Assembly (NCBI RefSeq): GCF_008326305.1
Contig: NZ_BIXY01000016.1
Location: forward strand, 1 to 64,000
From: Dictyobacter arantiisoli
Lineage (GTDB): Bacteria > Chloroflexota > Ktedonobacteria > Ktedonobacterales > Ktedonobacteraceae
Reading direction: 5' to 3'
Length of the DNA: 64,000 bases
The position numbers were made by a program, and so were the translations under genes. The notes under the pieces were generated by a model, which saw nothing but the letters and a program-made list of their open reading frames with translations, was not told the DNA's origin and made no database searches. This document shows positions 3 through 27,978 of this stretch, piece by piece (the stretch's first letter is position 1; each line of letters starts with the position of its first letter).

Positions 3-191
3 GCCGCCAAGCAGATGATTCAAGCATGGTGGTTTTGGCTGCGTGGGACGAAAAAACCGGTTCCATCCACTCCTCCTGTTCCCCAACCTCCTTCTCCTGT
101 CGCTCCATTGCCTGAGCCGTATCGTCCCTCTGTCACCCATCCTTGGAGGCGATCTCCGGCGTGCCGTCCAAAGTATCTCGCAAAAAAATGA
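3..191 (+). CDS. C-terminal part of an unrecognised protein (truncated by window edge)
   Basis: An open frame runs from the window edge to a TGA at 189-191 and encodes about 62 residues. It starts with a Trp-rich stretch (AWWFWLRG), then a proline-rich linker with repeated PP and PSP motifs, then a basic end (PKYLAKK). I recognise no family. The proline-rich, basic composition resembles a disordered tail, but a chance open frame cannot be excluded because the start lies outside the window. Confidence 0.3.
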   Translation, partial: AAKQMIQAWWFWLRGTKKPVPSTPPVPQPPSPVAPLPEPYRPSVTHPWRRSPACRPKYLAKK

Positions 192-3602: not shown

Positions 3603-3678
3603 TGGTGTACCCGATAGGATTTGAACCTACGGCCTACAGATCCGCAATCTGTCGCTCTATCCACTGAGCTACGGGTAC
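3603..3678 (-). tRNA. tRNA-Arg (anticodon GCG), copy 1
   Basis: The 76-nt minus-strand sequence folds into a full cloverleaf: acceptor stem GTACCCG/CGGGTAC, D arm with A20 (an arginine identity base), anticodon stem ACAGA/TCTGT around loop TTGCGGA, T arm, discriminator A and an encoded CCA. Anticodon GCG reads CGC. It is identical over its full length to the copy at 3821-3896. It has its own promoter and terminator. Confidence 0.95.
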
Positions 3679-3820: not shown

Positions 3821-3896
3821 TGGTGTACCCGATAGGATTTGAACCTACGGCCTACAGATCCGCAATCTGTCGCTCTATCCACTGAGCTACGGGTAC
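3821..3896 (-). tRNA. tRNA-Arg (anticodon GCG), copy 2
   Basis: Identical in all 76 positions, including the encoded CCA, to the copy at 3603-3678. The flanking sequences differ, so this is a duplication of the tRNA body only or an old duplication kept identical by conversion. Confidence 0.95.
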
Positions 3897-19452: not shown

Positions 19453-20328
19453 CTAGCGCAAAGAGGTAATATCCCCACATGCAAACGGATCATTAGCAGC
19501 CTGTGACTTTGTATCAGCTGCGCCCAGGTGGATATTCACATACCAACCATTGCGTGGTATTGCATTCACACCAGGAATAATCGTCGTAGAAGTTCCATCA
19601 CCTGAAGCATTGGCAGTGATGGTCTTCAAATCATACTTGATTGGTCCCTGGCTGGCACAACTTCCACTGTGCACATGAGCCATGTGCTTTGAATTGGGAA
19701 CTAATCCCTTCAGGGTAAGAGCAACCGTTAATTGATTGTTGCTGGCAGTCAATTGAGCGGTACCCGTGACGGACTGATTGGGCGCAAACGAGTTTATTAG
19801 CGTCGCTTGAACGCTCTGAGCAGTTTTGGTAGACGTTGTCGGATTGAAGATATTGGCACAAGTAATTGCCATGGATTGATCAACGGTGTTCATAGCTGGC
19901 CCATTACTTACATCAACGTACCAACCAGTCTCTGGAATGCCATCGGTGACACCTTTGACTTTACTAACCACATCAGCAAAACCAATTTCGGTAGCCTTCA
20001 CTGGTGACAAATTATAAACGACTTTGCCGTTATTCTTACAACTCCCCGAGCTAATATGTGCCGGATGATCACTCTTTGGCGTTAAGCCAGTTAAGGCCAT
20101 GTGTACCGTCAAGGCATGAGAAGTATGATCCCACATGAGTTCCACAGTACCTGATGGGCTATGTCGAATGATAGCACTAGCCGAGTTCACAGTAGAGCTG
20201 GTAGGCGTCGCCGCCAATCCCGAGTTTGCAGAATTTCCCGAATCACATGCAGAGAGAAGCAATAACGCTGCTCCTAACAGCAGGGTAAAATGAATAAATT
20301 TGTGCTTGACAAAGTATCTTGTAAGCAT
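19453..20328 (-). CDS. Secreted lipoprotein with two CHRD-like repeats
   Basis: A 291-residue lipoprotein of unknown function. The signal peptide ends in the lipobox LLSAC, so the mature protein starts at Cys and is anchored to the outer leaflet. Two related domains follow, each with the pattern LTVxMALTGLxPxSxHPAHISSGSC and a matching second half (LTVALTLKGLVPNSKHMAHVHSGSC shortened here), resembling CHRD or cupredoxin-adjacent folds; the conserved His and Cys could bind metal or form a disulfide. The start is the ATG preceded by AAAGGAG; a longer frame to 20361 has no SD. It has a near-consensus promoter at 20366-20394. Confidence 0.78.
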   Translation of the reverse strand: MLTRYFVKHKFIHFTLLLGAALLLLSACDSGNSANSGLAATPTSSTVNSASAIIRHSPSGTVELMWDHTSHALTVHMALTGLTPKSDHPAHISSGSCKNNGKVVYNLSPVKATEIGFADVVSKVKGVTDGIPETGWYVDVSNGPAMNTVDQSMAITCANIFNPTTSTKTAQSVQATLINSFAPNQSVTGTAQLTASNNQLTVALTLKGLVPNSKHMAHVHSGSCASQGPIKYDLKTITANASGDGTSTTIIPGVNAIPRNGWYVNIHLGAADTKSQAANDPFACGDITSLR

Positions 20329-20365
20329 ATCGACTCCTTTCTCATATTTATATCCCCACACTTCT

Positions 20366-24457: not shown

Positions 24458-24486
24458 TTGACATATCAAAAATGAGATGGTATCTT
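24458..24486 (+). promoter_or_regulatory. Strong promoter of the candidate RNA gene
   Basis: TTGACA (24458-24463) and TATCTT (24481-24486) separated by exactly 17 nt. No plus-strand protein gene follows before 28394, so its product is most likely the structured RNA next to it. Confidence 0.75.
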
Positions 24487-24492
24487 CTAATT

Positions 24493-24920
24493 ATTCCAAA
24501 GTAGTAACGGAATATTCCAGGGAACAAAAGACCCTGGCACAAGGCAGCGGCCTTGCATAAGTAACCCGAAAGGAGATCTTATGATAAACATAGGTTTGAT
24601 AAGAACTATGAAGAAACCAATCCGCTTGCTAGGGGTTGTATTCCAGATTGACTAAGAGTGCCCGTAAATGCGGGTTTACCGAGCCTCTGAGCTTCTAACA
24701 CTACCATAATAAGCCAGACTTTCTTTTTATCGGTCTGTACCAGTCATGACGCACTATAGACGTCAGGATGTGTCAGAGGTACACAGAGGATATACGCAAA
24801 ACTATTGCGATGTACTGTAAAAGTTAGTGCTCGGTTGACTTAAACACGCGGGAGTTGTGAAGAATAAAAGAGACACAGACGGGCTGGATAGCCGTGATTA
24901 TCCAGCCCTCTTCTTTTGCC
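24493..24920 (+). ncRNA. Candidate structured non-coding RNA, about 430 nt
   Basis: The region between the promoter at 24458-24486 and the terminator at 24881-24926 contains no plausible reading frame but many perfect local hairpins: CCAGGG/CCCTGG (24517-24537), CAAGGC/GCCTTG (24540-24555), TCTTAT/ATAAGA (about 24577-24604), GCCCG/CGGGT around 24660-24674, CAGAC/GTCTG (about 24715-24736) and TGACG/CGTCA (about 24747-24765). It lacks the RNase P core GAGGAAAGTCC, the tmRNA tRNA-like ends and the SRP GGAA tetraloop domain, so it is none of the common housekeeping RNAs. The minus-strand lepA gene ends only 75 nt beyond. The hairpin count was made by eye, not by folding. Confidence 0.55.
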
Positions 24921-24926
24921 TTTTTT
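24881..24926 (+). terminator. Terminator of the candidate RNA gene
   Basis: A perfect 10-bp stem (24881-24890 with 24899-24908), 8-nt loop, then a T-rich tract ending in TTTTTT. The T run is on the plus strand, so it does not belong to lepA. Confidence 0.85.
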
Positions 24927-24994: not shown

Positions 24995-26803
24995 CTATTC
25001 TTTGCCCAGGGATAGAACTGCCATGAAGGCTTCCTGAGGGATCTCTACACTACCAACCATCTTCATACGCTTCTTACCTTCTTTTTGTTTTTCCAGCAAT
25101 TTGCGCTTACGACTGATGTCACCACCATAACACTTAGCGAGTACATCTTTACGCATGGCTTTTACCGACTCACGCGCAATGACGCGGGAACCAATAGCAG
25201 CCTGAATAGGCACTTCAAATAATTGACGTGGAATCAGGGTGCGTAGCTTTTCCACAAAAGCGCGGCCCTGATAATAAGCTCGCTCGCGATGTAAAATAAG
25301 AGAAAGAGCATCCACTGGTACAGTATTGACCAGAATGTCCATTTTCACCAGATCTGAGGATCGGTAAGAGCCAAAATTATAATCCAGCGAGGCATACCCC
25401 TGTGTACGGGACTTCAACTGATCATAAAAATCAATAATCAATTCAGCCAGTGGGATCTCATAGCTCATCAGGACGCGCTCGGCCTCAATGTACTTCAGGT
25501 CCTTATATAAGCCACGTTTAGAGGTGACCAGATCCATGATTGTGCCAATATAGCGGGAGGGAGTAAAGATTGAGATGTCCATGTAAGGCTCTTCAATCAA
25601 TTCGATCTCACCAAAATTCGGCATATCCGAGGGATTATTCACCTCGATCACTTCGCCACCTGTTTTGGTGACATGATATTCTACACTGGGTGCAGTGGCG
25701 AGAATATCCAGATTATATTCGCGTTCCAGGCGCTCCTGGATAATCTCCATATGCAGCATGCCTAAGAAACCGCAGCGGAAACCAAATCCCAAAGCGTTTG
25801 ACGTTTCAGGCTCATAGAAGAGGGCAGCATCGTTCAATTTCAAACGGTCCAGAGCCTCACGCAATTCAGGATAGTCATTGCTGTCCACAGGATAGAGTCC
25901 CGCAAAGACCATCGACTTGGCAGGTTGATAACCAGCCAGAGGCTCAATCGTTTCCAATGCGGAGGGCACCGTGACGGTATCACCGACCTGGCAATCTTTG
26001 ACATTCTTAAAGCCAGTCGCGATATAGCCAACTTCGCCGGTCGTCAATTTCTTGATCGAGACCAGACGAGGATGGAAATAGCCCACCTCAAGAATATCAG
26101 CCGAACTACCAGCCGCAATCATAGAGAGACGCTCACCCTCATTGAGTTCCCCATCTACCACACGCACATAGGCAATCACGCCTTTGTAAGCGTCATAGTG
26201 GGAGTCAAAAACCAGGGCACGCAGAGGGCTATCGGTCTTACCCGAAGGGGGCGGCACTTGCTTCACAATAGCTTCCAGAATGTCCTGGGTGCCAATGCCT
26301 TCTTTAGCCGAGGCCAGAATGCACTCATCCTTCGACAGGCCAATAATATCCTCTACCTCTTGCTTGACCCGTTCAGGCTCAGCACTGGGCAGATCAATTT
26401 TATTGATGACCGGAATAATCGAGAGGTCAGCTTCAACTGCCAGATAGAGATTTGCCAGCGTTTGCGCCTCTACCCCCTGGGTAGAGTCGACCACAAGCAA
26501 AGCGCCTTCACAGGCGGCCAGACTACGTGAAACCTCATAGGTAAAGTCTACGTGTCCAGGAGTATCAATAAGATTGAGCTCATAGACTTCACCATCCAGC
26601 GCGGTATAAACCATACGCACAGCCTGGGACTTAATGGTGATACCTTTTTCACGCTCAAGTTCCATCTGGTCCAATGACTGCGCCTGCATATCGCGCTTTG
26701 AAATGGTGCCCGTATATTCTAGCAGGCGATCAGCGAGAGTAGACTTGCCATGGTCAATATGAGCAATGATACAAAAGTTCCTGATATGTGCCAGATCCGT
26801 CAT
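24995..26803 (-). CDS. lepA: Elongation factor 4 (LepA), ribosome back-translocase
   Basis: Translational GTPase (602 aa from the chosen start) that acts on the ribosome during elongation or initiation. G1 AHIDHGKST (14-22), G2/G3 region with DTPGHVDF and G4 NKID are present, then the EF-G-like domains II, III and V and the LepA-specific C-terminal domain ending [23 protein letters not shown] (split here as the family hallmark around 560-585). The start ATG overlaps the mnmA stop as ATGA, with GGAGGG eleven bases upstream, so a longer frame beginning at 26824 is rejected. Probably co-transcribed and co-translated with mnmA. Confidence 0.97.
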
Positions 26804-27978
26804 TCTGTAATAATCCCTCCACACAATACCTCAGCACCATTCTCTCCGCCATAGAACACGGCAGCCTGTCCAGGTGTGATAGCCCGCTGTGGATGTAACA
26901 AGGTAACACGAACACGGTTATCCTCAAGAGGTGTAACCAGTGCAGGCTGCTCGGGAGCCTTATAGCGAACGCGCACCATAGCCTCAAAGGGTTGAGTTGG
27001 TGTTTCGCCACTCAGATAATGCATCTCTTTAACCAGAAACTCAGCCTTTTCCAGAGCCTGAGCCGGCCCCACCACCAGAGAATTATGGTCAGAGTCAATC
27101 TTCAGGACGTGGAGTGGATCGCGGGAGGTAATCCCTAATCCTTTGCGCTGGCCAATCGTATAGTAAGCCAGACCACGATGGCGTCCCAGGGTATTGCCTT
27201 GCTGATCATAAATGGGGCCAGGCTTAGGAATAGAGATCAAAGGGGTGCCTGCAGGGGCTGCGGCACCAACGCCAGCACCGACCAGCGCAGGCTCTTCCTG
27301 TCTGGCGGCGGCGTAGCGATCAATAAAGCCGCGATAATCATTCTGTGCCACAAAACAAATTTCCTGGCTCTCAGCCTTGGTTGCCACGGTCATCCCGCGC
27401 TCTGCGGCCATCGCCCGAACCTCCGTCTTGGTATAACCACCTAACGGGAAGCAGGCATGGGACAGCTGCTGCTGATTAAGCACATGCAACACATAAGACT
27501 GATCTTTATCCGGGTCCACGGCACGACGTAAGCGGCGCATTCCAGTCACCGGATGATCATCGACACGCACATAGTGGCCCGTTGCCAGATAATCCGCATT
27601 CAAGGCCAGAGCACGCTTCAGCAAAACAGTAAAGCGAATATGGCGATTGCAATTCAGACATGGATTGGGTGTGCGCCCTCCTACATAATCTTCATAGAAG
27701 GTATCAACAATCTTTTCTTTAAATTCTTGTTCGACGTTCACCAGATAAAATGGAATATCGAGCATACGTGCAACTCGTCTGGCATCATCAACGGATTCCA
27801 GTGAGCAACATTTGTTTTGCACAACACGCTCTACACCATCATCTTCGGCTTCAATAACGCCAGGTTCTGACCAGAGGCGGAGCATAATACCGATCACCTC
27901 GTGACCTTGTTCTTTGAGGAGTGCGGCGGCGACCGAGCTATCTACGCCGCCGCTCATTGCGACGACAATTCGTGCCAT
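26800..27978 (-). CDS. mnmA: tRNA-specific 2-thiouridylase MnmA
   Basis: ATP-dependent enzyme that puts sulfur on U34 of tRNA-Lys, -Glu and -Gln. The PP-loop SGGVDSS is at 9-15, the two catalytic cysteines are C107 (NPCLNC) and C208 (EICFV), and the D-x-D/K region [11 protein letters not shown] is at 154-164. There is a lineage-specific Ala/Gly/Pro-rich insertion at about 223-250. Length 392 against about 360-370 in most bacteria fits this insertion. It heads a two-gene unit with lepA. The 5' leader holds a possible attenuator hairpin at 28036-28065. Confidence 0.97.

Follow-up and report, generated by a model that had tools for sequence, protein, structure and literature searches.

A Free-Standing Transcription Unit

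The window analyzed here, a stretch of 64,000 nt from the genome of Dictyobacter arantiisoli (contig NZ_BIXY01000016.1, positions 1 to 64,000), carries on its plus strand a compact unit that an earlier note, made from the sequence alone, had described as a free-standing structured RNA gene that has a promoter and a terminator of its own. The promoter, TTGACA-17-TATCTT (24458-24486, plus strand; extended -10 element with TG at 24478-24479), matches the consensus at 10 of 12 positions and ties for the best among eight promoter-like sites in the 5.5 kb scanned. Of 48 related loci, 38 have a promoter-like site of the form TTGAC-16..20-TAnnnT about as far upstream, where 0.9 were expected from shuffles. 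At the other end, an intrinsic terminator (24881-24917, plus strand; stem 24881-24908, followed by a T-rich tail) is the strongest of the region, and its stem, helix 8 of the consensus fold, shows two-sided compensatory changes in all seven counted pairs. The promoter and the strong same-strand terminator of the note are both confirmed, and their conservation in relatives supports the free-standing architecture. We regard the transcription unit as a real stand-alone gene, as its promoter, terminator and RNA are all conserved in relatives.

The gene that follows outside the unit is a convergent lepA, encoding elongation factor 4 (24995-26824, minus strand; TIGR01393, 975.8 bits); mnmA also lies downstream on the opposite strand, in what is overall a lepA/mnmA/dus neighbourhood. 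About half of the related loci also have lepA downstream in convergent orientation, and the neighbours of the remaining ones differ; in Ktedonobacter and Thermosporothrix the neighbour is a gene which we take, from its sequence by eye, to be homocysteine methyltransferase-like. No conserved co-directional downstream gene was found across the related loci. With either a convergent lepA or differing neighbours beside it, the unit is not a leader, in agreement with the note, and a leader RNA, riboswitch or attenuator is ruled out by context. The neighbourhood hints at a role in translation, but it may be just ancestral gene order since the link to lepA is lost in several genera.

Three smaller observations concern neighbouring genes. 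Two tRNA genes of the window (3606-3678 and 3824-3896, minus strand) have equal score and length and lie 145 nt apart, possibly as the result of a recent duplication. Lipoprotein genes that look alike by eye are found near the RNA in two genera, at 19453-20361 of the window (minus strand) and downstream of the ORF in locus L009. A T-box leader match below threshold (L030:1895-2197, plus strand; 47.7 bits, E 1.8e-07, gathering threshold 93) adjoins the orthologue in another family of Ktedonobacterales.

A Micropeptide ORF Inside the RNA

When the relatives are aligned, the best-conserved block of the RNA spans about 24608-24700, and in its first part the variable columns are mostly three bases apart. 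The block reads AAG AAA CCN ATY CGN NTN NTN GGN RTN GTN TWY CAR ATY GAY. Upstream of it stand AAAGGAG and an ATG in frame, and in most members a stop codon comes shortly after it. In the window this corresponds to an ORF of 24 codons plus TAA (24581-24655, plus strand) with the predicted product MINIGLIRTMKKPIRLLGVVFQID, to which the micropeptide sequence KKPIRLLGVVFQID belongs; its conserved core occupies 24611-24652 (plus strand), and a Shine-Dalgarno (SD) sequence AAGGAG (24570-24575, plus strand), kept in nearly all related loci, ends 5 nt before the ATG. The 434-nt stretch holds no plus-strand ORF of at least 60 aa.

Of 50 loci, nearly all keep the SD, start codon and frame, while the length of the N-terminus varies, giving peptides of typically 15-25 aa (widest range 14-34 aa; 24 residues here) that share the core K-K-P-[IV]-[RH]-[LVI]-[LFI]-G-[MV]-V-[FY]-Q-[IV]-D. 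Beyond QxD both length and sequence are variable, some members end in Pro-stop, and UAA, UAG and UGA are all in use as stops. In a few paralogous units (the second of L041 and the first of L042), no ATG stands at the expected place.

An earlier codon test was partly circular, because some loci had been fetched with a codon-shaped pattern, and it was redone with nucleotide BLAST as the sole source of loci. On these, pN/pS of the ORF was 0.145 against a shuffle mean of 0.90, with none of 500 column shuffles as low, and variation affected all 14 third codon positions, four first positions and two second positions. Such codon-wise conservation leaves little doubt that 24581-24655 codes and, judged by the substitution pattern, the peptide core is under strong purifying selection. 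The note had seen no credible ORF, which is wrong, and had proposed a purely non-coding RNA, which is refuted by one of the note's own refuting conditions: the reading frame is conserved, and no segment of the RNA is more conserved than this ORF.

Two further coding possibilities were rejected. A candidate second ORF at GGGAGTTGTG, or one past the hairpin described below, does not keep its start or frame (e.g. GTG TAG in L007, L010 and L020). Recoding of UAG at ...QID-UAG-GAG is unlikely because UAA and UGA are also found there and the next Cys codon is not kept.

The Hairpin at the Stop Codon and Additional Copies

Directly after the stop codon lies a GC hairpin, GCCCGU-AAAU-GCGGGU (24660-24675, plus strand), which is helix 3 of the consensus fold and is 100% paired. 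In the family the hairpin takes the form GCCCGU-NNAN-GCGGGC and is found within a few codons of the core almost everywhere; the combination of ORF end and hairpin occurs in 37 of 47 Ktedonobacterales genomes, with 0 matches for the control. In deep-branching members and paralogues, the ORF enters the hairpin and ends as ...QxD-x-E-C-P-stop, with the loop's first three bases as the stop codon, and in most Ktedonobacteraceae a stop right after QID precedes the hairpin. In several loci that have an earlier stop (L008, L023 and L024), the codon in the loop has lost its stop function, and this trade-off in itself speaks for translation. Several members of group f4 and L022 continue through the hairpin to a longer tail. 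The read-through tails of L107, L108, L068 and L022 have alanine-rich or otherwise non-polar ends (e.g. ...VKRANRAAAPTA), which may represent a degradation signal or drift.

Some genomes hold further copies in the form of short transcripts composed of SD, ORF, hairpin and terminator. Two such units stand in tandem in genome G013 and three in G015, with one hairpin per unit and with the SD and start codon kept in most, not all, of them. The long 3′ domain of the RNA is absent from the paralogues L114, L118 and L119 and from f2 members; it is found mainly in the main orthologue, and one duplicate, L043/L117, carries it as well. As the paralogues keep the ORF and hairpin and drop most else, these two form the irreducible module.

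A Conserved Fold with Compensatory Changes

That the RNA is structured, as the note had claimed, is borne out by folding. The 434 nt between promoter and terminator fold more favourably than any of 100 shuffles on average would suggest (z -3.6), and the check for compensatory changes, now run in relatives, found them. A consensus fold of 39 pairs, made up of an RNAalifold consensus and one hairpin added by eye and derived from 20 sequences, has 90.3% of cells paired and two-sided changes in 25 pairs; none of 500 shuffles, which take no account of relatedness among the 20 sequences, reached any of the fold measures. Sliding the partners by 1-3 columns lowers pairing to 37-50%, a control that is biased towards the structure because the structure was derived from the same 20 sequences.

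From the 5′ end, the plus-strand fold begins about the transcription start with hairpin 1, ATTCC/GGAAT (24493-24513; helix 1, 91% of cells paired, one two-sided pair), followed by hairpin 2, CCAGGG/CCCTGG (24517-24537), which appears in relatives in the compensatory form CCAGAG/CTCTGG, and by hairpin 3, CAAGGC/GCCTTG (24540-24555; helix 2, 92% paired, two-sided changes in three of four pairs). The next hairpin, CATAAG/CTTATG (24556-24583), encloses the SD and the start codon. The probability that the AUG is paired is 0.98 in the window and ranges from 0.05 to 0.99 among relatives; start-codon pairing is therefore a lineage-dependent feature and gives no firm mechanism. Past the ORF, a long-range helix spanning 24685-24788 is formed by 24685-24689/24784-24788 and 24691-24697/24774-24780 (helices 4 and 5; 95% and 91% paired, two-sided changes in 9 of 11 pairs), and it contains a hairpin GACG/CGTC (24748-24764; helix 7, 87.5% paired, three of four pairs two-sided). 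Most compensatory changes sit in the terminator and in the long-range helix 24685-24697/24774-24788. Judged by this covariation, the conserved fold is real, and the same RNA also codes.

Distribution and Comparison with Known RNA Families

The Ktedonobacterales are soil bacteria with a complex life cycle for which few genetic data exist. A 506-nt stretch around the unit occurs once in the D. arantiisoli genome and was recovered by nucleotide BLAST from nearly all tested Ktedonobacteraceae genomes and weakly from a second family of the order. Allowing up to three mismatches, 41 of 47 Ktedonobacterales genomes carry the ORF (13 of the 14 good ones), with two matches for a reversed control pattern, and the exact ORF pattern was present in 30 of 400 Chloroflexota genomes, all of them Ktedonobacterales; among the other sampled Chloroflexota the ORF was not found. 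A scan of 84,980 species returned 28 loci, from Ktedonobacteria, Ktedonobacterales and Chloroflexi MAGs and from one “Acidobacteria” MAG. This last locus (L068; DAHVCP010000029.1, filed as “Acidobacteria bacterium”) has a lepA-like gene beside the ORF, an arrangement known from Ktedonobacterales, and is most likely a mis-binned MAG contig. The examined ORF matches were short ORFs, never parts of larger proteins. The lineage-specific RNA that the note had suggested is thus conserved and, within the genomes searched, the unit is restricted to Ktedonobacterales. A phage or plasmid origin was rejected, as plasmids, phages and viral contigs gave no match.

Rfam cmscan of the window and 17 related loci, a check that the note had proposed for its idea of a new RNA class, gave no hit at gathering thresholds and, when these were relaxed, no convincing one; the matches at the RNA itself were at chance level (ctRNA_p42d on the terminator). 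The note had also stated, rightly, that the core motifs of RNase P RNA, tmRNA and SRP RNA are absent here, and all three are encoded elsewhere in the genome, whose other genes were searched by family models: the covariance models for RNase P RNA miss the locus and place the genome's copy at G000:C37:27485-27867 (286.6 bits), tmRNA (RF00023) does not match the locus and is found at G000:C15:63046-63415 (188.1 bits), and SRP RNA (RF00169), again without a match at the locus, is found at G000:C85:23201-23300. tmRNA is also a structured RNA of similar length in which a short internal reading frame is followed by a hairpin, whereas the RNA described here has an SD and AUG. For 6S RNA (RF00013), the whole genome gave no match at E<=0.1 with a model that may miss divergent 6S; 6S RNA differs from this RNA also in size and architecture.

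A Probable Structured Small-Protein mRNA

We consider the locus best explained, at a probability of roughly 0.8 for the explanation as a whole, as a small-protein gene with its own structured transcript, and our best reading is to place it among structured small-protein mRNAs, as a candidate new family without a match in the catalogues. A sigma-70 type promoter would give rise to a terminated RNA of about 430 nt, on which ribosomes would load at the SD inside its hairpin; the micropeptide that they make would end in the core KKPIRxxGMV[FY]QxD, with the GC hairpin sitting directly behind the stop codon or, in deep-branching members, around it. Translation in the cell is thereby predicted, and the peptide, rather than the act of translation, would be the main product. 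We infer that the peptide binds a conserved intracellular partner, because the peptide sequence is constrained order-wide and is too short and polar for a membrane toxin, and because I/V/L and F/Y are swapped as in a beta strand. The folded 3′ domain in Ktedonobacteraceae may tune stability or add a role at the RNA level. As the peptide has no match in Pfam, NCBIfam or the PDB, its function is deduced from such features instead of from a protein family.

Known bacterial small-protein genes resemble this one in having their own promoter, an SD, a tiny conserved ORF and a terminator, and in being missed by gene finders; unlike them, this transcript is unusually structured and the hairpin is always at the stop. 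The peptide gene is probably unannotated: it is too small for most gene finders and has no match in the family libraries. A peptide of 15-25 aa that stays near-unchanged across a bacterial order and is carried on its own structured transcript would offer a clean case, open to testing, in which a micropeptide gene and a covarying structured RNA are one and the same.

A bolder version is speculative and, on balance, we doubt it: the ORF-hairpin module would be order-wide, possibly core, and chained in tandem, its peptide would bind an essential partner (perhaps in translation), and the 3′ domain would be an independent regulatory RNA. If true, this would be a kind of dual-function RNA that is not known to have been described from Chloroflexota.

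Alternative Readings

RNAIII is similar in length to this RNA and contains an internal ORF of 26 aa. Together with SgrS/SgrT, SR1, Psm-mec and VcdRP it exemplifies the dual-function RNAs (PMC8672173), with which the present RNA shares a free-standing, structured transcript with a short conserved ORF; it has no sequence or family relation to them, and here the ORF-hairpin module is constant and tandem-duplicated. That kind is defined by regulatory action, and with its conserved ORF and structure on one transcript the RNA is a candidate for it. A true dual-function RNA, in which the micropeptide is joined by a folded 3′ domain (helix, hairpin and exposed GGGAGUU) that works in trans by base-pairing or protein binding, as in SgrS, RNAIII or VcdRP, is a serious possibility that we nevertheless hold tentatively, and it extends the small-protein mRNA explanation without contradicting it. 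The covariation of the 3′ domain exceeds the needs of an mRNA tail, and so does a near-invariant element, CACGCGGGAGTTGTG (24845-24859, plus strand), with a CAC/GUG stem and GGA in its loop, a candidate single CsrA site. Its motif RGGAGTTG lies 190-222 nt past the ORF in most Ktedonobacteraceae, against a background of 0.04 per 420 nt, and CsrA is encoded in 28 of 29 tested Ktedonobacterales genomes, in some in 2-4 copies (G000:C72:25821-25967 in this genome). Against it, the f2 members and the three paralogues named above lack the long 3′ domain, and GGAGUUG is missing from Thermogemmatispora and several other lineages.

An arrest or leader peptide, whose stalled ribosome would control this RNA or a downstream gene, could account for the strict C-terminal conservation, the hairpin at the stop codon and the Pro-stop of some members. 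We think it improbable, since what follows is a terminator and usually convergent lepA rather than a conserved co-directional gene, and an arrest site would not be conserved because the C-terminus after QxD varies.

Very short ORFs in multiple and tandem copies are also a feature of type I toxin mRNAs such as Ibs and Ldr, and the brevity of the peptide, with extra copies in several genomes and tandem ones in two, would likewise suit a secreted signal or RiPP precursor. We think this group of readings improbable: the peptide is amphiphilic and short, with no membrane-spanning hydrophobic helix; the consensus scan showed no antisense promoter over the ORF, and the sole minus-strand promoter-like site near the unit is directed away from it; the paralogues adjoin unrelated genes and, by inspection, no modification or export gene is shared beside the copies; and signals or RiPP cores do not typically stay near-identical throughout an order.

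A purely non-coding structured RNA with an incidental ORF would agree with the good conserved fold, the size and the free-standing architecture, and is very unlikely given the third-position pattern, the conserved SD, start codon and frame, and paralogues that retain the ORF and lose most of the rest. RNAs of the CsrB type carry many GGA hairpins. A CsrA-sequestering RNA like CsrB or RsmY would fit CsrA being found throughout the order, the one near-invariant CAC-RGGAGUU-GUG hairpin and the GGA in the SD, but the RNA has 7 GGA where 7.1 are expected and, as GGA is not enriched, such a sponge can be set aside, a single CsrA site alone being possible.
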